Of a DNA stretch of 64,000 nucleotides, positions 16,655 to 56,380 are shown piece by piece. The notes under the pieces are model-generated. The model ran no database searches. It was not told the origin of the DNA and saw nothing but the letters and a program-made list of their open reading frames with translations. This DNA comes from Spinacia oleracea. Taxonomy: Eukaryota > Streptophyta > Magnoliopsida > Caryophyllales > Amaranthaceae. The translations under genes and the position numbers were made by a program. How positions within the stretch are numbered: position 1 is the stretch's first letter; each line of letters opens with the position of its first letter. The stretch covers positions 146,103,861-146,167,860 of the forward strand of contig NC_079492.1 in the NCBI RefSeq assembly GCF_020520425.1. Direction: 5' to 3'.

Positions 16655-16735
16655 AATCATGACACATAAACATGTCATGCCATCATTATGACATGCCTTA
16701 AAGGTCGCATGCTGCGACCTTTATCATTTTCGTTA
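16655..16735 (+). promoter_or_regulatory. conserved SOT1 promoter module with palindrome
   Basis: About 80 bp are highly similar to the SOT7 promoter at 55202-55283, though the two genes belong to different sub-clades. It contains CATGACACATAA, CATGTCATG and, at 16700-16722, a perfect inverted repeat with arms AAAGGTCGCA and TGCGACCTTT separated by three bases. A TATA-rich stretch (TTATATATATATGG) follows at about 16733. It is a candidate binding site for a dimeric factor. Confidence 0.6.
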
Positions 16736-16789
16736 TATATATATGGACATATATACAACTTAACAAATGCAATCTACGTTAGAAAACAC

Positions 16790-19560
16790 ATGGCTGAACC
16801 ATCAGCAATGAATCAAAATGGTACTACCACAAAATTAAACCAAAGAGATGAAACATCTTTAGTGAATGAAGAAGTAGAAGTTGAGCATCTTAAACAATGT
16901 CTTCCAAAGACAACATGGATGGGTAGTAAGCAAAACCTACTCATTAAAATTCAAGACTTTTGGTATTTAACCAATTTCTCTAACATCCTTACTTTCCAAA
17001 CACATTTCCTTGCTCAAGACACCGATCTTATAGTGGCTAGCTTTCCGAAAACCGGCACCACTTGGTTGAAATCGCTACTGTTTTCTATTACTAATCGGTT
17101 TGTAAACCCCCCTAATAAAACACCTTTGCTTACCAACAATCCACATGAACTTGTGTGTGATTTAGAGACCGCTATCTATGGTGGAAACACCGGGAACTCT
17201 AAGCTACCGCACCCTAACCAACTTAACGAACTCCCTTCACCTCGGCTTTTCAGTTCACACTTGCCTTACTCGTCCCTTCCTGAATCTGTGAAGGTTTCTT
17301 CTTGTAAGATCTTGTATATTTGTCGAAATCCCTTAGACACGCTTGTGTCGCACTGGCTTTTCTTTCCAAAGCTGATAAAGAAGGTAATAACTCTAGTTTC
17401 CTAAATATAATAGAACTCTTTTTTGGTGTTAGCACCCGGTTCACCCTTAAGGCTAATTCGGATTCGGGGCGAGTTCTGGGTGGATAGGTTTCAGTCCCCT
17501 CCCAATTGTTGTTGCGGGGGATTGAACACGAGTTCTCCCTATTAAGTTCAGCCTCAATCACCACTGAACCAACAGACAATTGGTAACATAATAGAACTCT
17601 ACATATATCACAACTCTGATATATATAGTGTCTTTAAATTAAATAAGTGTGTTAGTGCAGTAGCGGAACCAGAAAATTTTGATCAGGGGGGTCACATTTA
17701 TTTAGTCTTGAGCTCACGATAATGTGCGTAACACATATTTTATTAGGAAAAAGAAATTGTTCACGACGACCTGTTAGTCAGTTAGTTATCCTTAATTTTA
17801 GGAACATGTATATTGTTAGTGGGCATGGTTAGTGGGTTATAAATACCACATTCTAGCAATTTACTCCCTCTGTTTTTTTATTAAGTGATATACTTTGACC
17901 AGATTTTAGAAGGGTGAGTTCATATTATTAAAATATGATGGAAGTGGGGTAATTAATGAGTTATTATTTATTGTAATAAATTGATAATGGGTGAATTATT
18001 TATGGGGGTTACTATTTACCGTCCCATATTACTCAAAACCGCCCTAATATTTTACCCATATACCCCCTTTATTTACCCCCTTATTTTAGCATTTACCATT
18101 ATCCTTTACCTTTTCCCTTTTTACCGCCCACCCTAAACATAATGTGAAATAATTTTTACATGGCCGAGACTACCGGTGGAACATCAAATTCACAAGAGGA
18201 CTTTTTTTCGGAAAAAAATATTCAGAAACTTATGCATTTCTAGCTCGTACCATGGAAGGAGCTTAAACTTCATAAGTGTATACTATGGTCGGAGCTCAAA
18301 ACTCATAAGTCTATGCTATTTAATGTTTTGATTTGTTGTTGAATTTGATGTAATTTGTTTCGGAGAAATGATTAAGAGACTTATGCATCTTAAGCTTGTA
18401 CCATGGTACAAACTTATGAATTTTAAGCTCGTACCATAGCAGGAGCTTAAAATGCATAAGTCTATGCCATGGTGTGAGCTTAAAATGCATAAGTCTCTAC
18501 CATGGTGTAAACTTAAAATGCATAAGTTTGTGGAATCAAAATTAAATTAGTATTTTTTTAATTTATTGATTAATGTACTTGACAAATAAAATTGCTTGGT
18601 TTAAATATTTTTTTTTTTATGGGTGTATGGTGGTGGTTTGGATGAAGATACTTTCTCTCTTCAAAATAGATGGGGTAAAATTTGGGAGAAAAGTTTCATT
18701 ATATAAGAATATTAAAGTAAAATAGTGGGGCGGTTTTGAGTAATGTGGGGCGGCTTTTAGCGCTCCACTTATTTATTGTAATATAACGAGAATGTGAATA
18801 AGTATATGGATCATAAGAGGCAGGGGAAAAAAATTAATATGATTGGGAGTGAGGGACCATGACATGCCAAAAATAGAACATGTATCACTTATTAAAATAC
18901 TGTCGAATAAGAAAAATGTATCACTTAATAAAATATGGAGAGAGTAGCTAGTAAATTTTATGAGTTTATAAAAGATTTTTTTTATGTAACTTTTAATTAG
19001 ATTGTACTACGTATAAAATAATAGTATAATTTTGCTATATTCTTTCCCCTCTCTTACCTCTATTATAAATTTATAATGTCAAATAGATAACAGGAGACGA
19101 AAATTTCCAACCCTCAAACATTGAAGATTTCTTTGAAGACTTTTGCCAAGGTGAGGTTATATATGGGCCGTTTTTCGAGCACGTAGTTGGATACTGGAAG
19201 CAAAGCTTAGAGCAGCCTAACAAGGTGTTGTTTTTTAAGTACGAGGATTTAAAAGAGAATCCTAGTGCTCACGTAAAGAAGTTGGCGGAATTTGTTGGTA
19301 TGCCATTTTCTACGCAAGAGGAAAATGAAGGAGTTATTGAAGAAATAATAGATTTGTGTAGTATCAATACTCTTAAAGACCTCGAGGTTAATAAGAGTGG
19401 TTCTCTTAGCCATTTCTTTGAAAATAAGACATTTTTTAGGGATGGAGAGGTCGGAGGGTGGACTCGTTATTTGACTGATTCCATGGCGGAGAAGATGAAC
19501 GAATTGATTGAACAAAAACTTGGAGGTTCGGGATTGTCCTTTAAATTGAAGCCCCTATAA
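16790..19560 (+). CDS. SOT1: cytosolic sulfotransferase with one intron
   Basis: PAPS-dependent sulfotransferase of the flavonol-sulfotransferase-like family. Exon 1 is 16790-17383 and exon 2 is 19087-19560. The phase-0 intron has clean borders (AAG/GTAATA and AAATAG/ATAACA), so LIKK joins ITGDENFQ exactly where the intronless paralogues read LIKRVTGDENYQ. The product has 355 residues, or 349 if the ATG at 16808 (MNQN, as in paralogues) is used. The 5'-phosphosulfate loop PKTGTTW is at 86-92, the catalytic His is in SSHLPY (His157), and the 3'-phosphate-binding segment ICRNPLDTLVS has Arg179 and Ser187. The C-terminal PAPS motif reads RDGEVGGW instead of the usual RKGxxGDW. The substrate is unknown. 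Most plant SOT genes lack introns, so the 1.7-kb intron, packed with a SINE and nested MITEs, is unusual. Confidence 0.85.
17420..17587 (-). mobile_element. tRNA-derived SINE (Au-like) inside the SOT1 intron
   Basis: Read on the minus strand it has box A (TGGTTCAGTGGTGATTGAGG) and box B (GTTCAATCCCC) and ends GGTGTTAGCACC-inverse plus poly-A. A perfect 13-bp duplication ATAATAGAACTCT flanks it (17407-17419, 17588-17600). The other copy is at 37272. Open frames on it are not genes. Confidence 0.9.
17864..18944. mobile_element. Stowaway MITE split by a MULE-like MITE
   Basis: The outer ends CTCCCTCTG and GGAGAGAG have flanking TA. The interior arms share ATTAAGTGATA/TATCACTTAATA. It lies inside the SOT1 intron and hosts the 18005-18768 insertion. 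Confidence 0.65.
18005..18768. mobile_element. Mutator-like TIR element with tandem TTAAGCTCGTACCATGG units
   Basis: Inverted ends start GGGGTTACTATTTACC and GTGGAGCGCTAAAAGCC and share TATTACTCAAAACCGCCC. Near-perfect 9-bp flanks TTATTTATG / TTATTTATT fit Mutator-type duplication. The interior has about five degenerate copies of a CTTAAGCTCGTACCATGG-type unit (18235-18530). Confidence 0.65.
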
Positions 19561-21860: not shown

Positions 21861-22022
21861 CAGTAGCGGATCCAGAATTTTGAGATAGTGGGGTCACTAT
21901 TTAAAAATTGATGAAACTAAAATTATTTATTTTTTAAAAAAAAATTGAACTTTTAACTATAAAAAAAAAAAAAATCAAGTGGGGTCAAGGACCCCACTGA
22001 GGGCACCGTGGCTCCGCCACTG
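21861..22022. mobile_element. hAT-type MITE with CAGTGGCGGA-like ends
   Basis: Inverted ends CAGTAGCGGATCC and GGCTCCGCCACTG are flanked by imperfect 8-bp repeats CCTCTCAC / CTCCTCAC. Fragments of the same end type occur at about 17660 and 48298. Confidence 0.75.
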
Positions 22023-23217: not shown

Positions 23218-24266
23218 ATGAATCAAAACCAAAAAGAGGAAATATATGTCAAGGATGAAGAGGTAAAAAGGCTAATACAACGCCTTCCAAAAACCAATGT
23301 GAGGGGCAGCAACATCCATTTCTTTCAAATGGTGTTGTATGAAGGTTTCTGGTACTCCACTAATTCATCCCTCTTTAAAAATGTTCTCACCTTACAAAAA
23401 CACTTTGTTGCTCGAGACGACGACATTTTCATTACCGGCCTCCCAAAATTAAACCGGCACAATTTGGTTAAAATCCTTACTCTTTTGCGGTTATTAACCG
23501 CAAAAATCACCCAAATACTATTGATCAAAACCCTTTTAATTTACTCACCCACCATCCCCAAGAACTTGTGTGTAACTTAGAGGCGGACGTCTATGGCGAG
23601 GCCTTTGAGTATCCACGCCCACACCACCTTAATGAGGTTCCATCGCCTAGGCTTTTTAGCACTCATATGCCATACACATCACTTCCTAACTCTATCAAAA
23701 CTTCTAAGTGTCGGATTTTGTACATTTGTCGAAACCCTTTAGACACTATCGTGTCATTTTATTACTTCTATTTAGGGTATATGAAAAAGTTGGCAAATGG
23801 AGAAGATTTTGTACAACTTCCTATAGAGGATATCTTTGAAGATTTTTGTCAAGGGAAAACCCTCTTTGGGCCTTTTTTCGAGCATGTTCTTGGGTTTTGG
23901 AACACGAGTTTAGAGCGACCTGATAAGGTGTTATTTCTTAAGTACGAAGATTTGAAACATGATCCCGAACTTCACTTAAAGAGGTTGGCGGAATTTATAG
24001 GTATGCCCTTCTCACCTAAAGAGGAAAGTGAAGGTGTCATAAAACAAATTGTAGAGTTGTGCAGTATTAAGACTATGAAGGAGGTTAATAAGAGCGGTGT
24101 TATTAACAAGTTCTTTGAGAAGAAGAGTTACTTTAGGAAAGGCGAGGTTGGTGATTGGACTAATCACTTCACACCTGCCATGGTGGAGAAGATGAACAAA
24201 CTCATGGAAGAAAAACTTGAGGGATCTGGTTTATCCTTCAACAAATTTTCTAATGAATTCCTTTAA
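23218..24266 (+). pseudogene. SOT2: sulfotransferase pseudogene (frameshifts in the PAPS loop region)
   Basis: The first frame (23218 on) begins MNQNQKEEIYVKDEEVKRL, like SOT4, and runs to ITGLPK at about residue 78. There, where paralogues have PKTGTTW, a 4-bp insertion (AAATTAAACCGG against AAAACCGG) shifts the frame, and at least two further small indels follow up to about 23560. The second frame (from 23568) resumes with VCNLEADVYGEAFEYPRPHH and keeps the rest of the enzyme: His in STHMPY, ICRNPLDTIVS and an intact RKGEVGDW motif, ending at 24266. The segment carrying the phosphosulfate-binding loop is therefore unreadable in one frame, so an active full enzyme is unlikely. The C-terminal third is almost identical in DNA to SOT7, while the N-terminus matches SOT4. 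Confidence 0.88.
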
Positions 24267-27568: not shown

Positions 27569-28657
27569 CTAAAACACATATACTTTATACGTAGTATATA
27601 GTAGTATTAATTTATCAAGGCTGTAATTTAAAGGACAATATAATCCAGATCCACCAAGTTTTTCTTCCATCAATTCCTTCATTTTCTCTACCATGGGAGC
27701 AGACAGATAACGAGTCCATCCTCCAACCTCTCCATCCCTAAAGAAATTCTTATTTTCCACAAACTTACTAAGCAAACCACTCTTATTAACCTCCAGATCT
27801 CTAAGCTTATGAATACTACACAACTCTATTATCTCTTTAATAACACCTTCATTTTCCTCTTGTGTAGAAAACGGTATACCAACAAATTCAGCCATCTTCT
27901 TTAATTGAGCACTCGGATTCTCCTTTAAATCCTCGTACTTCAAAAACAACACCTTATTTGGCTGCTCTAAACTTTGCTTCCAGTATCCAACCACATGCTC
28001 GAAAAAGGGCCCAAATGCAACCTTACCTAAACAAAAGTCCTCAAAGAAATCTTCAATATTACAAGGTTGGTAATTTTCATCCCCAGTTACCCTCTTTATT
28101 AATTTCGGGTAAAAATGCCAGTGAGACACAAGGGTGTCTAAGGGATTTCGACAAATGTACAAAATCTTACAAGAAGAAATCTTTATAGATTGAGGAAGGG
28201 ACGAGTAAGGCATATGTGAGTGGAGAAGCCGCGGTGGAGGGAGGTCGTTAAGTTGGTTAGGGCGGGGGAGTTTTGGGTTACCACCGTACACGGCGGTTTC
28301 TAGGTCATAAACAAGCTCATGTGGGTTGTGGGTTAGCAAAGGCGTTTTGTTAGAGGGGTGGACAAAACGGTTAGTGACAGAAAAGAGCAAGGATTTCAAC
28401 CAAGTGGTGCCGGTTTTTGGAAAGCTAGAGACTATGAGATCGGTGTTTTGAGCAAGGAAATGTCTTTGAAAAGCGAGGATGTTGGAGAAATTGACAGTAG
28501 AATACCAGAAGCCTTGAAAGTTAAGGAGTTGAAAGTGTTTACTACCCATCCAGTTTGCCTTTGGAAGACATTGTTTAAGCTTTTCAACTTCTTCTTCATC
28601 CACTATATCTATTTCTTTTGTTTGGTTTGTTTTGGTGGTAATATCGTTTTGATTCAT
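27569..28657 (-). CDS. SOT3: cytosolic sulfotransferase with an altered C-terminus
   Basis: Intronless gene for 362 residues (usual length about 340-350). The PAPS loop PKTGTTW is at 80-86, the catalytic His148 is in HSHMPY, and Arg170 and Ser178 are in ICRNPLDTLVS. The C-terminal motif is RDGEVGGW (307-314), as in SOT1 and SOT6. The coding DNA is almost identical to SOT6 (opposite strand, about 21 kb away). A 4-bp insertion (TATA) after GGSGL replaces the final SFKLQP of SOT6 by about 23 unrelated residues (starting YCPLNYSLDK), reading past the old stop. Those last residues lie outside the catalytic fold, so activity may survive. The TATA box AGTATATAAC lies about 50 bp upstream, next to MITE sequence. 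Confidence 0.92.
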   Translation of the reverse strand: MNQNDITTKTNQTKEIDIVDEEEVEKLKQCLPKANWMGSKHFQLLNFQGFWYSTVNFSNILAFQRHFLAQNTDLIVSSFPKTGTTWLKSLLFSVTNRFVHPSNKTPLLTHNPHELVYDLETAVYGGNPKLPRPNQLNDLPPPRLLHSHMPYSSLPQSIKISSCKILYICRNPLDTLVSHWHFYPKLIKRVTGDENYQPCNIEDFFEDFCLGKVAFGPFFEHVVGYWKQSLEQPNKVLFLKYEDLKENPSAQLKKMAEFVGIPFSTQEENEGVIKEIIELCSIHKLRDLEVNKSGLLSKFVENKNFFRDGEVGGWTRYLSAPMVEKMKELMEEKLGGSGLYCPLNYSLDKLILLYTTYKVYVF

Positions 28658-28829
28658 TGTGGCTTATGACTTGTGAGTATGCCCTTGATGTAAGATGCAT
28701 TTGTTATATACTTATTTCGTTTCGAAATAATAGGGACACCTAGACATTTCACAATAACCAAGATAAATGTTGAAAAGTAAGGAATAAGTACGGCAAAAGT
28801 GAAATGTACGTAGTAAGAAAAGAATAATA

Positions 28830-37271: not shown

Positions 37272-37441
37272 GTTTTATTTTTTGGTGTTAGCACCCGGTT
37301 CACCCTTAGGGCTAATTTGGATTTAGGGCGAATTCTGGTTGGATAGTTTTCAGTCTTCTCCCATTTGTAGTTGCGGGGGATCGAATACGGGTCCTCCCTA
37401 CAAGTTCAGCCTCAATCACTACTGAACCAACATGCAATTGG
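37272..37441 (-). mobile_element. tRNA-derived SINE (Au-like), copy 2
   Basis: Same family as 17420. On the minus strand it has TGGTTCAGTAGTGATTGAGG and a box B before a TTAGCACC-inverse end and poly-A. A 15-bp duplication with one mismatch flanks it (37257-37271, 37442-37456). Confidence 0.85.
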
Positions 37442-37542
37442 TAATACAGTGTCACAATGGTTAAATATACAATCGTATTTGTAAAATATACATTCATCAA
37501 CCGGGCAGCGGTCAAGGTGACCACAACCTTATATTGGTCTGT

Positions 37543-38251: not shown

Positions 38252-39289
38252 TTAATTAGAAAATATGTTGAAGGATAAACCAGATCCCTTAAAATTTTCT
38301 TCCATGAGTTTATTCATCTTCTCCACCATGGCAGGTGTGAAATGATTGGTCCAATCTCCAACCTCGCCTTTCCTAAAGTAACTCTTCTTCTCAAAGAACT
38401 TGTTAATAACACCACTCTTATTAGCATCCAATTCCTTCATATTCTTAATGTCACAGAAGTCTACAATTTGTCGTATGACACCTTCATTTTCCTCTCGAGT
38501 AGAAAAGGGCATACCTATAAATTCCGCCAACCTCTTCAATTGAGGAGTAAGATCGTGTTTCAAATCTTCGTACTTAAGAAATAACACCTTATCAGGTCGC
38601 TCTAAACTCGAGTTCCAAAACTCAAGAACATGTTCGAAGAAAGGCCCGAATAGGATTTTTCCTTGACAAAAATCTTCGAAGATATCCTCTAGTAAAGTAG
38701 GTTGTACGAAATCTTCTCCATCATTTGCCATATTTTTCATAAACCCTAAGTAGAAGTAATAAAGTGACACGAGAGTGTCTAAAGGGTTTCGACAAATGTA
38801 CAAAATTCGACACCTAGAAGTCTTGATAGAGTTAGGAAGTGATGTGTAAGGGATATGAGTGCTAAAAAGTCTAGGTGATGGAACCTTATTAAGGTGATGT
38901 GGACGTGGATACTCAAAGGCCTCATCATAGACATCCGACTCTAGGTTACACACAAGTTCTTGTGGGTGGTGGGTGAGTAAAGGGCTTATTTGATTAATAA
39001 TAGGATGATTTTGGCGGTTAACAACCGCAAAGAGTAAGGATTTCAACCAAGTTGTGCCGGTTTTAGGGAAGCCGGTAATGAAAATGTCGTCATCTCGAGC
39101 AACAAAGTGTTTTTGTAAGGTGAGAACATTTCTAAAGAGGGTTGAATTGGTGAAGTACCAGAAACCTTCGTACAACACCATTTGAGTGGGATTGATGGCG
39201 CCCTTCAAATTGGTTTTTGGAAGGCATTGCATTAGCTTTTTGACCTCTTCATCATTCACATATATTTCCTCTTTTTGGTTTTGATTCAT
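38252..39289 (-). CDS. SOT4: cytosolic sulfotransferase, intact motifs
   Basis: Intronless gene. I chose the ATG at 39289 (MNQNQKEE), conserved in all paralogues, giving 345 residues. An in-frame ATG six codons upstream (39307) also exists. The PAPS loop PKTGTTW is at 75-81, the catalytic His145 is in STHIPY, and Arg167 and Ser175 lie in ICRNPLDTLVS. The C-terminal motif FRKGEVGDW is canonical, unlike SOT1, SOT3 and SOT6. Its closest relative here is the pseudogene SOT2, with a shared N-terminus and a shared upstream SINE. This copy has no visible defect and is the best candidate for an active enzyme of its sub-clade. A TATA box (GTATATATAAAAC, minus strand, about 39346-39358) lies about 60 bp upstream. 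The substrate cannot be inferred. Confidence 0.94.
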   Translation of the reverse strand: MNQNQKEEIYVNDEEVKKLMQCLPKTNLKGAINPTQMVLYEGFWYFTNSTLFRNVLTLQKHFVARDDDIFITGFPKTGTTWLKSLLFAVVNRQNHPIINQISPLLTHHPQELVCNLESDVYDEAFEYPRPHHLNKVPSPRLFSTHIPYTSLPNSIKTSRCRILYICRNPLDTLVSLYYFYLGFMKNMANDGEDFVQPTLLEDIFEDFCQGKILFGPFFEHVLEFWNSSLERPDKVLFLKYEDLKHDLTPQLKRLAEFIGMPFSTREENEGVIRQIVDFCDIKNMKELDANKSGVINKFFEKKSYFRKGEVGDWTNHFTPAMVEKMNKLMEENFKGSGLSFNIFSN

Positions 39290-41432: not shown

Positions 41433-42955
41433 CCGATGAAATATAGATATGCGAGAGTAATAAGTTCGTATCAGTTTTAAATAAACTAAATATTAAAAAC
41501 AGAGTACTTAATACCTTTATGGATGGTCTGAACGTAAATAGACACGATTTTTGTTCACGAGACATAAATGAGTAAAGGCATTTTAGATAATGTAAGTGAA
41601 CATCAAACTCATTTAGGCATATATATGCGATTATAAATGGGAAAGGAATATTTAAACCTAAGATCTATTACAAATATTTTTTTCAGTCTTAATAACTAGG
41701 ACAAAACCTCATTGGTAATTTTCCTGATATTATGATGATGCATACTTCGTATTTGGGACCGGATATCCGAAAATTCGAACCAAATCCGAATTTCAAAAAT
41801 ACCAAATTGATGTTTTACATTAATTTTTCGAATATCCGAAACCTTAAAACTAGAAAATATCCGTAATTTTGGTTAGGAACATCGGATTTTCTATTGTTTT
41901 TTAAAAAATTTAAATTATTTCGGATCTAAAATGGAAAACACAAATTCTTATTTATAAGTTGTGTACAATAAATATTGTACATCGGAGTAAAAATTATCGG
42001 AGTAAAAGTTGATTCAAAATGCTTAAAAGTTACATTTATATATGTAAAAGTTATCTATTTTTTAGTGATAAAAATTTTCATTTGAATAAAAGTTATTTCT
42101 TCAAAATCAATAATAATGTATAGATTAATCATTTATTCCTTTCAAAAATTTATCTATCAACTTTTTATTTTTATAATATAAACGTTACAAAAGAGTTGGT
42201 TAAAGTTACAAAAAAACTGCATAAAAGTTATTGTTATAACCAAACGCGTGCCACGAACGATTAGGAACAAACCCTGCAAATATAATATAGACCAAATAGC
42301 AAAAACTATAATAAAAGTCACAAGTGTTTGTGAGGAAATTCAGATTTCCTCCCCTCAAATATTATCGTATTATTAAGTTCCTGCAAACTAATGTAATAAC
42401 CCCTCAATTGATGATTACTCTCACCAATGTATTTTCCCTCTTATTTTCTAGCTAGGCTTAAACCCCCTTTTATAGGCTAAACTAGAAACCCACATCTATT
42501 AGAATTGTACTTGCTCCCCAAGTCTAAATAATTATAGAGATTGTTACATACCAAAATATATCTAGTTTCCTAATTACAATTCTAATTAAACTAGGAAACA
42601 AGATATTAAACCAAACAAGTCCGTTTCGTATTCTTGTCGACTTAACTAAGTTGTGTTTAATGCCTAACAGTTATCTTGATGTACAATAAATTTATTGTAC
42701 ACCTTATACGCGCAAGATCTTTTGAATGGAAAAAGTTGATCCAAATCCTATTCGAATATCCAATTTGTTTTCCTTCTGAATATCCGATTCGAAATATCCT
42801 AAACCTTAAAATCGAATCGGTTATCCGAAATTTAGAATTGGATATTTTTGCACCTGTACAACTCCTAAATAAATACGAAGGGGTAAGTGCATTAAATTCC
42901 ATGAAAAAACAAATGTTATTATTGTAAAGGTGCGGGTACAACTCCTAATTTCCTA
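41433..42955. other. gene-free stretch with CCGAATATCC-type degenerate repeats
   Basis: Degenerate ATCCGAA words occur at 41755-41900 and 42735-42850. They resemble the interiors of the hAT-like MITEs elsewhere. The rest is AT-rich and I see no gene. Confidence 0.45.
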
Positions 42956-45018: not shown

Positions 45019-46077
45019 TCAGGATTGAGGGAGTTGTTGAAAGGACAAACCAGAACCACCAAGTTTTTGTTCCATCAAAGTGTTAATCTTGTCAATCATA
45101 GGAGGGGTGAAATAATTAGTCCAATCACCAACCTCTCCTTTCCTAAAGAAGTTCTTCTTCTCAACAAACTTGTTCATAAAACCAATCTTATTAACCTCCA
45201 ATTCCTTGAGATTATCAATGCTACAAAACTCCATTATTTCATTAATCACACCATTACTTTCTTCCTCAAAAGAAAATGGCAAACCAAGAAATTCAGCCAG
45301 CTTTTTAAGATGAAGCATAGCATTATCACCTTTTAAATCCTCATACTTTAAGAACAAGACCTTGTTAGGTTGCTCAAGACTTTGTTTCCAAAACTCAATA
45401 ACATGCTCAAAATAAGGCCCATATGGAAACTTCCCTAGACAAAATTCCTCAAAAAATTCCTCTATTGTAGGAGGTTGGAAATCTTCATCTTTTGTCCTCT
45501 TTTTTATCAAGGTTGTGTGCCAAAACCATTGCGAAACACAAGTATCTAAAGGATTCCGAGCAATATAGAGAATCTTACACGATGAATCTTTGATAGATTC
45601 GGGTAATGATTGGTATGGAAAGTGTGTATGCAAAAGCCTTGGAGAAGGGAGGTCGTTAAGTTGGTTAGGGCGTGGTAAGATGGGATTATCACCATAAACA
45701 CCAAGGTCTAGATGATAAACAAGTTCATGAGGATTATGGTTAAGTAAAGGGCTAAATTTGATTAAGGGTTGTTGATGATGATGATTATCAACATTATTAG
45801 GTCGGTTGACAATACAAAAGAGTAAGGATTTCAACCAAGTTGTGACGGTTTTTGGGAGACTAGCTAAGAAGATGTCGGAGTTGCGAGCTTGGAAGTGGGT
45901 TTGATAATGGAAGATTTGTTTAAAGGCATTGGATTGACACCAAAAGCCTTGGTAATTTACTAGCTCAAGCTTACTTCCAAGGAAGTTTGTTTTTGGAAGG
46001 CATTGCTTAAGTTGTTCAACTTCCTCTTCTTGGAGTAGTTTAGTTTCTTTTGTTTGATTGTCATTTTGATTCATCAT
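45019..46077 (-). CDS. SOT5: cytosolic sulfotransferase with Gly-to-Val in the PAPS loop
   Basis: Intronless gene for 352 residues, starting MMNQNDNQ (two adjacent ATGs). The 5'-phosphosulfate loop reads PKTVTTW (75-81): the invariant Gly78 is Val (GTC against GGC in the paralogues). The rest is intact: catalytic His152 in HTHFPY, Arg174 and Ser182 in IARNPLDTCVS, and FRKGEVGDW near the C-terminus. A side chain at this glycine should crowd the PAPS phosphates, so activity may be low or lost, although no frame is broken. A His-rich insertion (NHHHQQP) lies at about 99-104. The TATA box GTATATAAG (minus strand) lies about 55 bp upstream. It is the most divergent full-length member. Confidence 0.92.
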   Translation of the reverse strand: MMNQNDNQTKETKLLQEEEVEQLKQCLPKTNFLGSKLELVNYQGFWCQSNAFKQIFHYQTHFQARNSDIFLASLPKTVTTWLKSLLFCIVNRPNNVDNHHHQQPLIKFSPLLNHNPHELVYHLDLGVYGDNPILPRPNQLNDLPSPRLLHTHFPYQSLPESIKDSSCKILYIARNPLDTCVSQWFWHTTLIKKRTKDEDFQPPTIEEFFEEFCLGKFPYGPYFEHVIEFWKQSLEQPNKVLFLKYEDLKGDNAMLHLKKLAEFLGLPFSFEEESNGVINEIMEFCSIDNLKELEVNKIGFMNKFVEKKNFFRKGEVGDWTNYFTPPMIDKINTLMEQKLGGSGLSFQQLPQS

Positions 46078-49129: not shown

Positions 49130-49276
49130 TACATGTATTATATTCTACTTTCACATACAAATTATTCATCAATGTACTATATTTCAATTTCCCACAAACT
49201 ATATTTCACTTTTCTTAAAATTTGTGTTTTTATACAAACAAACATGACTATAACTTTTCGAAACGGAGGGAGTATA
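49130..49276 (+). promoter_or_regulatory. half Stowaway MITE ending at the SOT6 TATA box
   Basis: The right half of the 47949/54850 family ends ACGGAGGGAG and is followed at once by TATATAAC, the presumed TATA box about 55 bp before the SOT6 ATG. SOT3 has the same arrangement in a more decayed form. Confidence 0.6.
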
Positions 49277-49326
49277 TAACAAGTGCATCTTACATCAAGG
49301 ACATAACTCACAAGTCATAAGCCACA

Positions 49327-50367
49327 ATGAATCAAAATGATGACATTACCACCAAAACAAACCAAACAAAAGAAATAGTTATAGTGGATGAAGAAGAAGT
49401 TGAAAAGCTTAAACAATGTCTTCCAAAGGCAAACTGGATGGGTAGTAAACACTTTCAACTCCTTAACTTTCAAGGCTTCTGGTATTCTACTGTCAATTTC
49501 TCCAACATCCTCGCTTTTCAAAGACATTTCCTTGCTCAAAACACCGATCTCATAGTCTCTAGCTTTCCAAAAACCGGCGCCACTTGGTTGAAATCCTTGC
49601 TCTTTTCTGTCACTAACCGTTTTGTCCACCCCTCTAACAAAACGCCTTTGCTAACCCACAACCCACATGAGCTTGTTTATGACCTAGAAACCGCCGTGTA
49701 CGGTGGTAACCCAAAACTCCCCCGCCCTAACCAACTTAACGACCTCCCTCCACCGCGGCTTCTCCACTCACATATGCCTTACTCGTCCCTTCCTCAATCT
49801 ATAAAGATTTCTTCTTGTAAGATTTTGTACATTTGTCGAAATCCCTTAGACACCCTTGTGTCTCACTGGCATTTTTACCCGAAATTAATAAAGAGGGTAA
49901 CTGGGGATGAAAATTACCAACCTTGTAATATTGAAGATTTCTTTGAGGACTTTTGTTTAGGTAAGGTTGCATTTGGGCCCTTTTTCGAGCATGTGGTTGG
50001 ATACTGGAAGCAAAGTTTAGAGCAGCCAAATAAGGTGTTGTTTTTGAAGTACGAGGATTTAAAGGAGAATCCGAGTGCTCAATTAAAGAAGATGGCTGAA
50101 TTTGTTGGTATACCGTTTTCTACACAAGAGGAAAATGAAGGTGTTATTAAAGAGATAATAGAGTTGTGTAGTATTCATAAGCTTAGAGATCTGGAGGTTA
50201 ATAAGAGTGGTTTGCTTAGTAAGTTTGTGGAAAATAAGAATTTCTTTAGGGATGGAGAGGTTGGAGGATGGACTCGTTATCTGTCTGCTCCCATGGTAGA
50301 GAAAATGAAGGAATTGATGGAAGAAAAACTTGGTGGATCTGGATTGTCCTTTAAATTACAGCCTTGA
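49327..50367 (+). CDS. SOT6: cytosolic sulfotransferase, near-identical twin of SOT3
   Basis: Intronless gene for 346 residues, beginning MNQNDDITTK and ending SGLSFKLQP, the normal C-terminus that SOT3 has lost. The PAPS loop reads PKTGATW (81-87): Thr85, which helps bind the phosphosulfate, is Ala (GCC against ACC in SOT3). Catalytic His149 is in HSHMPY, Arg171 and Ser179 are in ICRNPLDTLVS, and RDGEVGGW is shared with SOT1 and SOT3. Apart from one extra Asp codon near the start, the loop change and one Asp/Val difference, it matches SOT3 up to GGSGL. The matching region includes about 70 bp of promoter and part of the 3' untranslated region. The Thr-to-Ala change is expected to weaken but perhaps not abolish PAPS use. 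Confidence 0.93.
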   Translation: MNQNDDITTKTNQTKEIVIVDEEEVEKLKQCLPKANWMGSKHFQLLNFQGFWYSTVNFSNILAFQRHFLAQNTDLIVSSFPKTGATWLKSLLFSVTNRFVHPSNKTPLLTHNPHELVYDLETAVYGGNPKLPRPNQLNDLPPPRLLHSHMPYSSLPQSIKISSCKILYICRNPLDTLVSHWHFYPKLIKRVTGDENYQPCNIEDFFEDFCLGKVAFGPFFEHVVGYWKQSLEQPNKVLFLKYEDLKENPSAQLKKMAEFVGIPFSTQEENEGVIKEIIELCSIHKLRDLEVNKSGLLSKFVENKNFFRDGEVGGWTRYLSAPMVEKMKELMEEKLGGSGLSFKLQP

Positions 50368-51366
50368 TAAATTAAGTATATGTATTTTAGTAGTTATTTG
50401 TAATGTTTTTTTTTCCGGGAAGAGTTATTAAATTTGTTGTAATGTTTGTTTCAATTATACCATACGTCCATACTACTATCACAGTTATTTGTGACTGAGA
50501 TATTTGAGATTAGTTTATGCATGTACATAGTATGCATTATTCATCATATGAAGAGGTTAAACACTTAGGCTATGTTTGACAAGCACTTTCAGTCACCTTA
50601 AATAATTAGGTGCTAATAATATAAGTCACCTTATACAATTAGGAGTGTTTGGTAGGGAGCTGAAATAAAATATAAGTTGGAAAAAGTGACTGATATTGAA
50701 ACATTAATCTGATTAATGTTTGATTTTCAGCTCATGAAATTTTTGTTTTCTTTTGAAAAAAAAATGTCTCTAAAATTCTAAATAAGTTAAAACTCTAATA
50801 CTATGTTGTATAATTGTAACTCGCTATGGGAGAAAAAAAAGTCCCTCCTCTGTGAATGATGAAACGTCGGTAAGCACTTCTCTCTACTTTACGGGTTGCA
50901 TCCAAAAATTTCTTAATTTTTATTCATTTAATAATCGAATCATTTATCTTTTCTAGAAATGTATTTAAATCAAACCCAAAATCATAAAATTAGCAGAGAA
51001 AAGAATAGGAAAAAATAATGTTGTGTTAATTATATTTTAGATAATCAAATATGTATTTTTTCTCCAAAATGTATTTCGTCTTTGTAACTCAATATACGAT
51101 TGTAACTTAAAATTTTTCTTACAAGTGATAAGTAAAGTAGGTATAAAAAATAAAAATTTATACAAGTAATGCAAAATTATTCAAAAAATTAGTTTACCGG
51201 CTGTTGGTTAACCAATTTTATTCTTAAACTGCATGTGTAACGAAATTTATATTATTATTTGTAAAACTGCGTATATAAAGCAATTTATAAGTGAATTTGA
51301 AATGACTAAAAAACTCGAACTATATGCAACAATTCGGGGCATTGTACAAGCCACTAACTAGTTATA
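50368..51366. other. SOT6 3' flank with a Helitron 3' end
   Basis: The start is shared with SOT3. A MITE-like stretch (GGCTATGTTTGACAAGCAC) lies at 50572-50740. At 51321-51361 a Helitron 3' end (CGGGGCATTGTACAAGCC then CTAG, next base T) is seen. Its 5' end is uncertain (perhaps about 50795). No gene. Confidence 0.5.
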
Positions 51367-53371: not shown

Positions 53372-53480
53372 TTAAGGGAGTTGTTGAAAGGATAAACCAG
53401 AACCTCCAAGTTTTTGTTCCATCAAAGTGTTAATCTTGTCAATCATAGGAGGGGTCCAATCACCAACTACCAACCTAAAT
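53372..53480 (-). pseudogene. C-terminal fragment of a SOT5-like gene
   Basis: About 36 codons match the end of SOT5: GDWT, then PPMIDKINTLMEQKLGGSGL and SFQQLP. Twelve bases present in SOT5 are missing, and the similarity stops at about 53480, where sequence like the SOT6 5' flank begins. It is a remnant of a deleted gene copy. Confidence 0.88.
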
Positions 53481-55201: not shown

Positions 55202-55283
55202 AATCATGACACATAAGCATGTCATGTCATCATTGTGACACGGCTTAAAGGTCAGCATGTTACGACCTTAATCATTTCCGTAT
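55202..55283 (+). promoter_or_regulatory. conserved SOT7 promoter module
   Basis: Shares AATCATGACACATAA, CATGTCATG, TCATT.TGACA, CTTAAAGGTC and CGACCTT.ATCATTT with the SOT1 promoter (16655-16735). The inverted repeat is imperfect here. It lies between a TATATAAG (55173) and an ATTATATATC (55306), either of which could serve as TATA box. Confidence 0.6.
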
Positions 55284-55351
55284 AACAATATCGACCATCT
55301 TCATTATATATCATACATTCATTTCCGATAACATAACCTAAACTATTGAGA

Positions 55352-56380
55352 ATGAATCAAAATCAAAATCAAACAATGGATGAAATGTGTAAAGAAGTCC
55401 AAGAAGAAGTTGAAAAGTTAGTGAAATGTCTTCCTAAGGTTACTCAAAGAGGCTCTTCCTTTGAAATGATAAAGTATCAGGATTCCTGGTATTTCATTAC
55501 AGGTAATTTGTTCAGAAATGTTGTTACCTTTCAAAAACACTTTGTTGCTAAACATACCGATATTATCATTACTAGCCTTCCCAAAACCGGCTCAACTTGG
55601 TTAAAATCTCTACTCTTTGCGGTCGTTAATCGCGCAAATCATCCCATTAATCAAAGCCCTTTACTCACTTGCCATCCACAAGAGCTTGTTTATAGCTTAG
55701 AGACCGATGTATATAGTGAAGCGTTTCCTTATCCTCGCCCACACCATCTTAACGAGGTTAAGCCACCTAGGCTTCTTAGCACCCATGTCCCTTACACATC
55801 TCTTCCTGAATCTATCAAGACTTCTGAGTGTCGCCTTTTATATATATGTCGAAACCCTTTAGATACGCTCGTTTCAAGCTATTACTTTTTCCAAGAGTAT
55901 ATGAAAAAATTTCAAGAGAAAAAACAAGATTTTGCGACAAAACGTAGTCTTGGTGATACCTTTGAGGATTTTTGCAATGGGAAAAGCTTATTTGGGCCTT
56001 TCTTTGAACATGTTCTTGGGTATTGGAACATGAGTTTAGAGCGACCTGATAAGGTGTTGTTCCTCAAGTACGAGGACTTGAAAAATGATCCTGAACTTCA
56101 TTTGAAGAGGTTGGCGGAATTTATAGGTATGTCCTTCTCACCTAAAGAGGAAAATGAAGGTGTCATAAAACAAATTGTAGAGTTGTGTTGTATTAAGACT
56201 ATGAAGGAGGTTAATAAGAGTGGTGTTATTAACAAGTTCTTTGAGAAGAAGAGTTACTTTAGGAAAGGCGAGGTTGGGGATTGGACCAATCATCTTACAC
56301 CTTCGATGGTCGAGAGGATGAATAAACTCATGGAAGCAAAGCTTGAAGGATCTGGTTTATCTTTCAAATTGCTTTCTTAA
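55352..56380 (+). CDS. SOT7: cytosolic sulfotransferase, intact motifs
   Basis: Intronless gene. The first ATG (55352) gives 342 residues starting MNQNQNQT. The PAPS loop PKTGSTW is at 77-83 (Ser for Thr at the fifth position, a conservative change common in the family), the catalytic His145 is in STHVPY, and ICRNPLDTLVS and FRKGEVGDW are both intact. Residues from about EFIGMSFSPKEENEGV to the RKG motif are nearly identical in DNA to the pseudogene SOT2, while the N-terminal half is clearly different, which suggests gene conversion. It appears functional. By its motifs it joins the SOT2/SOT4 sub-clade, but its promoter module is shared with SOT1. Confidence 0.94.
   Translation: MNQNQNQTMDEMCKEVQEEVEKLVKCLPKVTQRGSSFEMIKYQDSWYFITGNLFRNVVTFQKHFVAKHTDIIITSLPKTGSTWLKSLLFAVVNRANHPINQSPLLTCHPQELVYSLETDVYSEAFPYPRPHHLNEVKPPRLLSTHVPYTSLPESIKTSECRLLYICRNPLDTLVSSYYFFQEYMKKFQEKKQDFATKRSLGDTFEDFCNGKSLFGPFFEHVLGYWNMSLERPDKVLFLKYEDLKNDPELHLKRLAEFIGMSFSPKEENEGVIKQIVELCCIKTMKEVNKSGVINKFFEKKSYFRKGEVGDWTNHLTPSMVERMNKLMEAKLEGSGLSFKLLS

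Follow-up and report, generated by a model that had tools for sequence, protein, structure and literature searches.

The cytosolic sulfotransferase gene SOT1 of Spinacia oleracea probably carries a real spliceosomal intron, which would have been gained after the gene split from SOT3 and SOT6, by insertion of DNA at a latent donor site with a TAA overlap. The intron is present in only one member of the gene cluster analysed here, and sequence comparison within that cluster supports the view that it was most simply gained by insertion. Well-resolved intron gains are scarce in plants, and what looks like one can often be accounted for by repeated losses, according to the available portion of PMC4256211. 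In the present case, the close uninterrupted paralogues keep the likely pre-insertion site, and therefore the proto-splice-site route is directly testable.

Results

A sulfotransferase gene cluster with one interrupted member

The window, by which we mean the whole 64,000-nt stretch of DNA that was analysed (assembly GCF_020520425.1, NC_079492.1, positions 146,103,861-146,167,860, forward strand), contains a cluster of cytosolic sulfotransferase genes, and a profile search matched PF00685 in all six SOT stretches scanned. All coordinates below are positions within the window.

16808-19560, plus strand: SOT1, the sole interrupted member of the window cluster
16808..17383, plus strand: SOT1 exon 1, 192 codons from the ATG at 16808, open frame, PF00685 positions 1-113
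17384..19086, plus strand: predicted spliceosomal intron of SOT1, 1703 nt, phase 0, with GT at 17384-17385 and AG at 19085-19086
19087..19560, plus strand: SOT1 exon 2, open frame of 157 codons and a stop, covering PF00685 positions 120-255
about 23218-24266, plus strand: SOT2, frame-shifted near the nucleotide-binding motif, reads as a pseudogene
27569-28657, minus strand: SOT3, uninterrupted, coding sequence near-identical to that of SOT6
38252-39289, minus strand: SOT4, uninterrupted
45019-46077, minus strand: SOT5, uninterrupted
49327-50367, plus strand: SOT6, intact and uninterrupted, used as the anchor sequence, 77% protein identity to SOT1
55352-56380, plus strand: SOT7, uninterrupted

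With 17384-19086 removed, SOT1 reads as an open 349-residue PF00685 sulfotransferase. Its two exons give profile matches of 6.5e-30 and 4.1e-36, respectively, and exon 1 contains the sequence FPKTGTTW, which we take to be the PAPS-binding motif. The junction aligns without a gap to SOT3 and SOT6 (KLIKK/ITGDE in SOT1 versus KLIKRVTGDE), and if exon 1 is read through unspliced, a stop is reached a few codons on (...KKVITLVS, then stop). The initial annotation had claimed that clean GT-AG borders restore the exact frame of the paralogues, and that every sibling here is uninterrupted at this position. Both claims are borne out, as the spliced frame is open and gapless at the junction, and all six window siblings (SOT2, SOT3, SOT4, SOT5, SOT6, and SOT7) are continuous at the site. 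SOT5 matches the solved plant sulfotransferase chains 1q44, 9m0l, and 5mek, and its alignment to the Arabidopsis-type chain 1q44 has a five-residue gap about seven residues beyond the place of the junction. Therefore, the SOT1 junction appears to lie near a variable stretch of the protein.

Further features of the cluster were observed. SOT3 and SOT6 form an inverted pair (27607-28727 and 49256-50375) that is 98.4% identical over about 1.1 kb; the block comprises the coding region plus about 70 nt upstream, and the similarity is weaker further downstream. A 5-nt insertion near the end of SOT3 replaces its C-terminus. Inspection of the flanks by eye revealed no poly(A) that would point to a retrocopy origin of SOT3 or SOT6. 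On the minus strand, 53375-53467 holds a SOT C-terminus fragment that shares 89% identity with SOT5 across 35 residues. A stretch of about 95 bp upstream of SOT1 (16655-16748) resembles 55202-55295 upstream of SOT7, and this likeness, despite the distance between the two genes within the family, may reflect either a shared promoter element or a transposon end. A search for relatives found none in viral contigs; genome contigs gave two distant bacterial ones (24% identity), which were left out of the analysis, and no plant ones.

Borders and splice signals

The following signals were located at the borders of the interruption (a slash marks a splice position throughout).

17384..17387, plus strand: GTAA, 5' splice site and putative old exon sequence, identical to the GTAA in the corresponding position of SOT6
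19025..19084, plus strand: AG-free, T-rich stretch of 60 nt upstream of the 3' splice site
19053..19057, plus strand: candidate branch point CTTAC, its A lying 30 nt before the 3' end of the intron
19085..19086, plus strand: AG of the 3' splice site, CAAATAG/AT, presumably contributed by inserted DNA

The GC content of the interrupting sequence is 32.6%, compared with 39.8% in exon 1 and 38.6% in exon 2. Of the 99 GT-AG pairs near both edges, 14 give an open frame, and the pair 17384/19086 scores best against SOT6. Scored against the donor consensus MAG/GTAAGT, the SOT1 donor AAG/GTAATA matches at 7/9 positions. At the homologous site, SOT3 and SOT6 carry the coding sequence AGG/GTAAC, which in SOT6 likewise scores 7/9; two of the 58 GTs in the SOT6 coding sequence score 7 or more, and one of these is at the homologous intron site.

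The 3' splice site of SOT1 (AATAG/A) is weak. A better-looking acceptor, CAG/G (CAG/GAG; 19087-19096), lies 7 nt downstream of it, and its use would shift the frame, leading to an early stop and a truncated protein. The candidate branch point follows the pattern YTNAY, and the last 50 nt of the intron are 46% T. An AG-free stretch as long precedes 5.0% of the 6,439 AGs on both strands, and one with as much T too precedes 1.2%. Judged by its borders and by the open spliced frame, 17384-19086 would be a U2-type spliceosomal intron, with splicing itself being predicted.

The edges of the proposed insertion

The initial annotation had further noticed ATAAC at both edges, and proposed that an insertion with a target duplication of this word had supplied the splice sites. 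The word is indeed found at 17387-17391 and 19087-19091, and in its exact register, which was picked post hoc, it is present in only 1.2% of 20,000 random 12-nt stretches. However, a shared word of at least 5 nt is the rule in random pairs of 36-nt stretches from the window (3,335 of 5,000, or 67%), and neither of the splice dinucleotides, GT or AG, lies within ATAAC. Moreover, if ATAAC was duplicated, the ancestor would have read KKVITGDE, with one codon more than SOT3 and SOT6 have. Thus the repeat itself stands, whereas its role as a target duplication was set aside, being weak against chance and in need of an extra ancestral codon; we consider gain by such a 5-bp duplication highly improbable. 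This mode of gain expects GTAATAACAGG at the site of an intronless SOT1 orthologue, and GTAACAGG would contradict it.

A shorter overlap emerges when the flanks are anchored on SOT6 (ATAAAGAGGGTAACTGGGGAT). On the left, SOT1 agrees with SOT6 up to and including GTAA apart from a single earlier mismatch, and on the right it agrees over TAAC, which places the two copies of the overlap as follows.

17385..17387, plus strand: left copy of TAA, putative 3-nt overlap or target duplication, from the SOT6-anchored flanks
19088..19090, plus strand: right copy of TAA, putative overlap, from the SOT6-anchored flanks

This TAA overlap may be the footprint of the insertion, although an overlap of at least 3 bases also arose in 5.9% of 20,000 insertions simulated without duplication. 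As GTAA is also part of the donor consensus, the match of SOT1 to SOT6 over these four letters is not independent.

The interior of the predicted intron

Several elements were recognized inside the intron.

17404..17419, plus strand: left direct repeat of a SINE-like element, matching 17585-17600 at 15/16 positions
17419..17586, minus strand: SINE-like element, 88% identical to 37278-37444, its span being that of the repeat match
17585..17600, plus strand: right direct repeat of the SINE-like element, matching 17404-17419 at 15/16 positions
17658..17813, plus strand: uncertain hAT-like MITE fragment, starting with CAGTAGCGG... and having no matching right end
17864..18944, plus strand: Stowaway-like MITE with CTCCCTC... 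ends and a TA duplication, its length increased by a nested element
18004..18768, plus strand: nested MITE-like element of about 765 bp inside the Stowaway-like MITE, boundaries approximate
18376..18527, plus strand: long hairpin with self-complementary arms, inside the nested element

We take the element at 17419..17586 to be SINE-like, presumably with internal promoter boxes, and the T-run at its left end indicates that it was inserted on the minus strand. The inverted arms of the Stowaway-like MITE, a family name that we assume, are located at 17876-17896 and 18913-18933 (90%), and those of the nested element at 18019-18055 and 18717-18753 (89%); an 8-nt repeat, TTATTTAT, was seen by eye at both ends of the latter. 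The interior had been described as holding a SINE and a MITE within a MITE, and this description agrees with the second window copy and the flanking repeat of the SINE-like element, as well as with the two nested sets of inverted arms. The uncertain fragment at 17658..17813 is 82% identical over 44 nt to 21861-21903, and the 8-nt repeat TGTTAGTG stands without mismatch on either side of it (at 17650 and 17814); the repeat also occurs at four other same-strand places in the window. Outside the intron, 21861-22022 has the appearance of a hAT-like MITE with the ends CAGTAGCGG and CCGCCACTG, as read by eye. This element perhaps represents the family of the intron fragment, the name hAT being our assumption for both.

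The predicted fold of 18370-18530, which spans the hairpin, has an energy of -74 kcal/mol. All eight RNA-family matches in the intron are below gathering scores (seven within 18376-18772 and one at 17488-17532), and microRNA-family matches of the hairpin are well below them; if transcribed, the hairpin could be a source of small RNA.

Outside the listed elements, a few hundred bases remain as the founding DNA, with pieces at 17388-17403 plus 17601-17657 on the left and at 18947-19087 on the right. Its ends carry no terminal inverted repeats (P 0.61, 0.08, 0.22, and 0.62 at four lengths), and its right piece gave only short AT-rich matches within the window. A possible copy of its left end at 42555-42580 (E 0.001) was rejected, since 49 of 150 random 37-mers matched the window as well. 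Across the 64-kb window, the founding DNA thus appears to be without the recognisable transposon ends or copies that would mark a transposon-derived intron, and it may be the product of either transposition or break-repair filling. Most simply, the nested elements would have landed after the founding insertion, but they could also have arrived together with the founding DNA.

Constraint on SOT1 and the chance of a clean splice pair

With the NG86 method, dN/dS between SOT1 and SOT6 comes to 0.208 in exon 1 and to 0.144 in exon 2 (0.294 by YN00, for exon 1 only), and these codon comparisons show the two exons evolving under similar constraint. With SOT5, SOT4, and SOT7 as outgroups, parsimony placed 37 synonymous changes on the SOT1 branch along with 39 replacements, against 38 and 31, respectively, for SOT6, leaving 32 sites unassigned. 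By this count, SOT1 has slightly more replacements than SOT6, yet nowhere near the number expected without constraint. However, a short dead phase of SOT1 would also give such an excess.

These figures bear on the idea that SOT1 is a recent pseudogene, broken by the insertion of a transposon or of filler DNA, with its GT-AG frame being the result of luck plus youth. The weak 3' splice site with its competing, frame-shifting AG speaks for this idea, as does the slightly higher number of replacement changes than in SOT6, and the cluster already contains one pseudogene, SOT2. Yet both exons are intact over 349 codons, under a constraint like that of the uninterrupted SOT6. The age of the interior also speaks against a dead gene: a K2P distance of 0.126 separates the SINE-like element from its second copy (37278-37444), which makes about 0.06 each if they had a common source, and a SOT1 that had been non-functional from the arrival of that element onward would be unlikely to show an intact frame. 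Under simulated neutral decay, with assumed indel-to-substitution ratios of 5-15%, the frame stayed intact with a probability of 0.0001-0.008 at 0.06 and of 0.006-0.08 at 0.03, values that are valid only if the SINE-like element landed after the intron was formed. If the nested elements arrived with the founding DNA, this SINE-based age argument is removed.

Luck as the source of the frame was assessed by simulating 20,000 insertions of intergenic DNA from the window into SOT6, each with a 3-nt duplication. In 25.8% of the insertions, at least one GT-AG pair, with each member no more than 10 nt from its edge, left the frame open; such a pair with zero net length change was obtained in 5.2%, and one with a donor of at least 7/9 in 1.0%. 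Zero net length change together with a donor of at least 7/9 was obtained in 0.35%, so that a pair as good and as exact as that of SOT1 would rarely arise by chance. On balance, we regard a pseudogene as an unlikely explanation of the SOT1 locus.

Gain or loss

For six genes, with SOT2 left out, unrooted codon trees were built on the full gene, on exon 1, and on exon 2. They set SOT1, SOT3, and SOT6 apart from SOT5, SOT4, and SOT7 with support values of 100, 98, and 100, respectively, and grouped SOT3 with SOT6 in all three cases. As the exon-1 and exon-2 trees agree, the possibility that SOT1 is a chimera of two gene copies was ruled out. Given the agreement of the trees on this split, a single gain on the SOT1 branch would suffice, whereas losses in place of a gain would have to number at least two, unless the tree is rooted on the branch of SOT1 itself. 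Such a root is disfavoured by the synonymous distances, as SOT1 has a dS of 0.64 from SOT6 and of at least 1.36 from SOT5, SOT4, and SOT7. Parsimony alone is nevertheless a weak argument, because losses outnumber gains (652 versus 118 in single-event groups of grasses) and apparent single gains in plants may be several losses, as stated in the available portion of PMC4256211.

Alternatively, the intron may be an old one of the SOT lineage that was precisely lost both from the stem of SOT3 and SOT6 and from the side of SOT5, SOT4, SOT7, and SOT2. In addition to the excess of loss over gain in grasses, this explanation can draw on the presence of introns in some plant SOT genes, as in 18 of the 56 Brassica rapa genes (PMC6699706) and 4 of the 29 potato genes (PMC8707064), although most SOT genes are intronless or single-exon in both of these surveys and in that of cotton, where the mean is 1.5 exons (PMC6938023), as far as the accessible parts of the three surveys go. 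Furthermore, the GTAAC of SOT3 and SOT6 differs from the ATAAC at the start of SOT1 exon 2 by one transition, as precise loss followed by a mutation would leave it. However, the match between the GTAA at the start of the intron and the exon of SOT6 would then be a coincidence, and at least two losses are needed on the window tree, short of a rooting on SOT1 that the distances oppose. We therefore consider an old, repeatedly lost intron quite unlikely. A finding of ATAACAGG at the site of an intronless SOT1 orthologue would fit precise loss. Since precise loss plus one transition also yields the site seen in SOT3 and SOT6, the local sequence favours gain without proving it. From the trees, the distances, and the site together, we infer that the SOT1 intron was gained rather than lost elsewhere.

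Discussion

In the origin that we propose for the intron, the ancestral SOT1 exon would have held a latent 5' splice site, AAG/GTAAC, of which the present AGG/GTAAC of SOT3 and SOT6 is the counterpart; the pre-insertion site in the TAA model would read AAG-AAG-GTA-ACA. DNA would have been inserted just after GTAA, leaving the 3-nt TAA overlap. The donor would then be the GT of the old exon, which belongs to the GTA codon of SOT3 and SOT6, and the acceptor would be an AG within the last bases of the insert (...ATAGA), with the T-rich, AG-free stretch ahead of it. Because an A derived from the insert would replace the removed G, the length of the mRNA would be kept and the only cost would be a change from Val to Ile, which would fall where the protein sequence is variable. 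Later, the SINE-like element, the Stowaway-like MITE, and a further element would have enlarged the intron.

Insertion beside a ready-made splice signal is a known and seldom well-documented route of plant intron gain. Tentatively, and with some doubt, we suggest that SOT1 might present a plant intron gain of which the whole route can be read, from the latent donor and the acceptor-bringing insert to the Val-to-Ile cost and the nested growth, in a gene that is still constrained. If true, the new intron would have offered further transposons a place to insert while selection continued to act on the gene. A literature search, made without naming the species, found no earlier report of the SOT1 intron.

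Maize Dissociation and rice catalase are reportedly the cases behind the transposon-derived introns of Zea and Oryza. A table in the available part of PMC3443670 lists transposon-born introns from Oryza, Zea, Drosophila, and Oikopleura; its Oryza and Zea entries are hard to square with the statement, in the accessible text of PMC4256211, that as of 2014 a transposable element had been linked to none of the fixed intron gains proposed for plants. Like the Zea and Oryza cases in the former excerpt, SOT1 has a putative exonic insertion that is predicted to be spliced out; in contrast to them, its intron holds several nested elements and a founder without recognisable transposon ends. Gain through break repair, as described in the same part of PMC3443670, would fit the short edge repeat and the absence of transposon ends in SOT1, although the edge repeat is only 3 nt long. 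Among the Introners, one class takes the host donor and carries its own acceptor, and Introners are present in no land plant surveyed, according to the available portion of PMC9860276. They would share with SOT1 an insertion with a short duplication and the combination of a host donor with an acceptor from the insert, but no multicopy intron family was seen within the 64-kb window. In its mechanism the locus resembles events that are already known, but within the window its founder is not recognisable as a transposon, and we file the intron neither as transposon-derived nor as an Introner. As in the plant cytosolic sulfotransferases of the PF00685 family with solved chains (1q44, 9m0l, and 5mek), a single domain is made, in SOT1 jointly by two exons; in contrast to most plant SOT genes in the accessible parts of the surveys, which are intronless or single-exon, SOT1 is interrupted.
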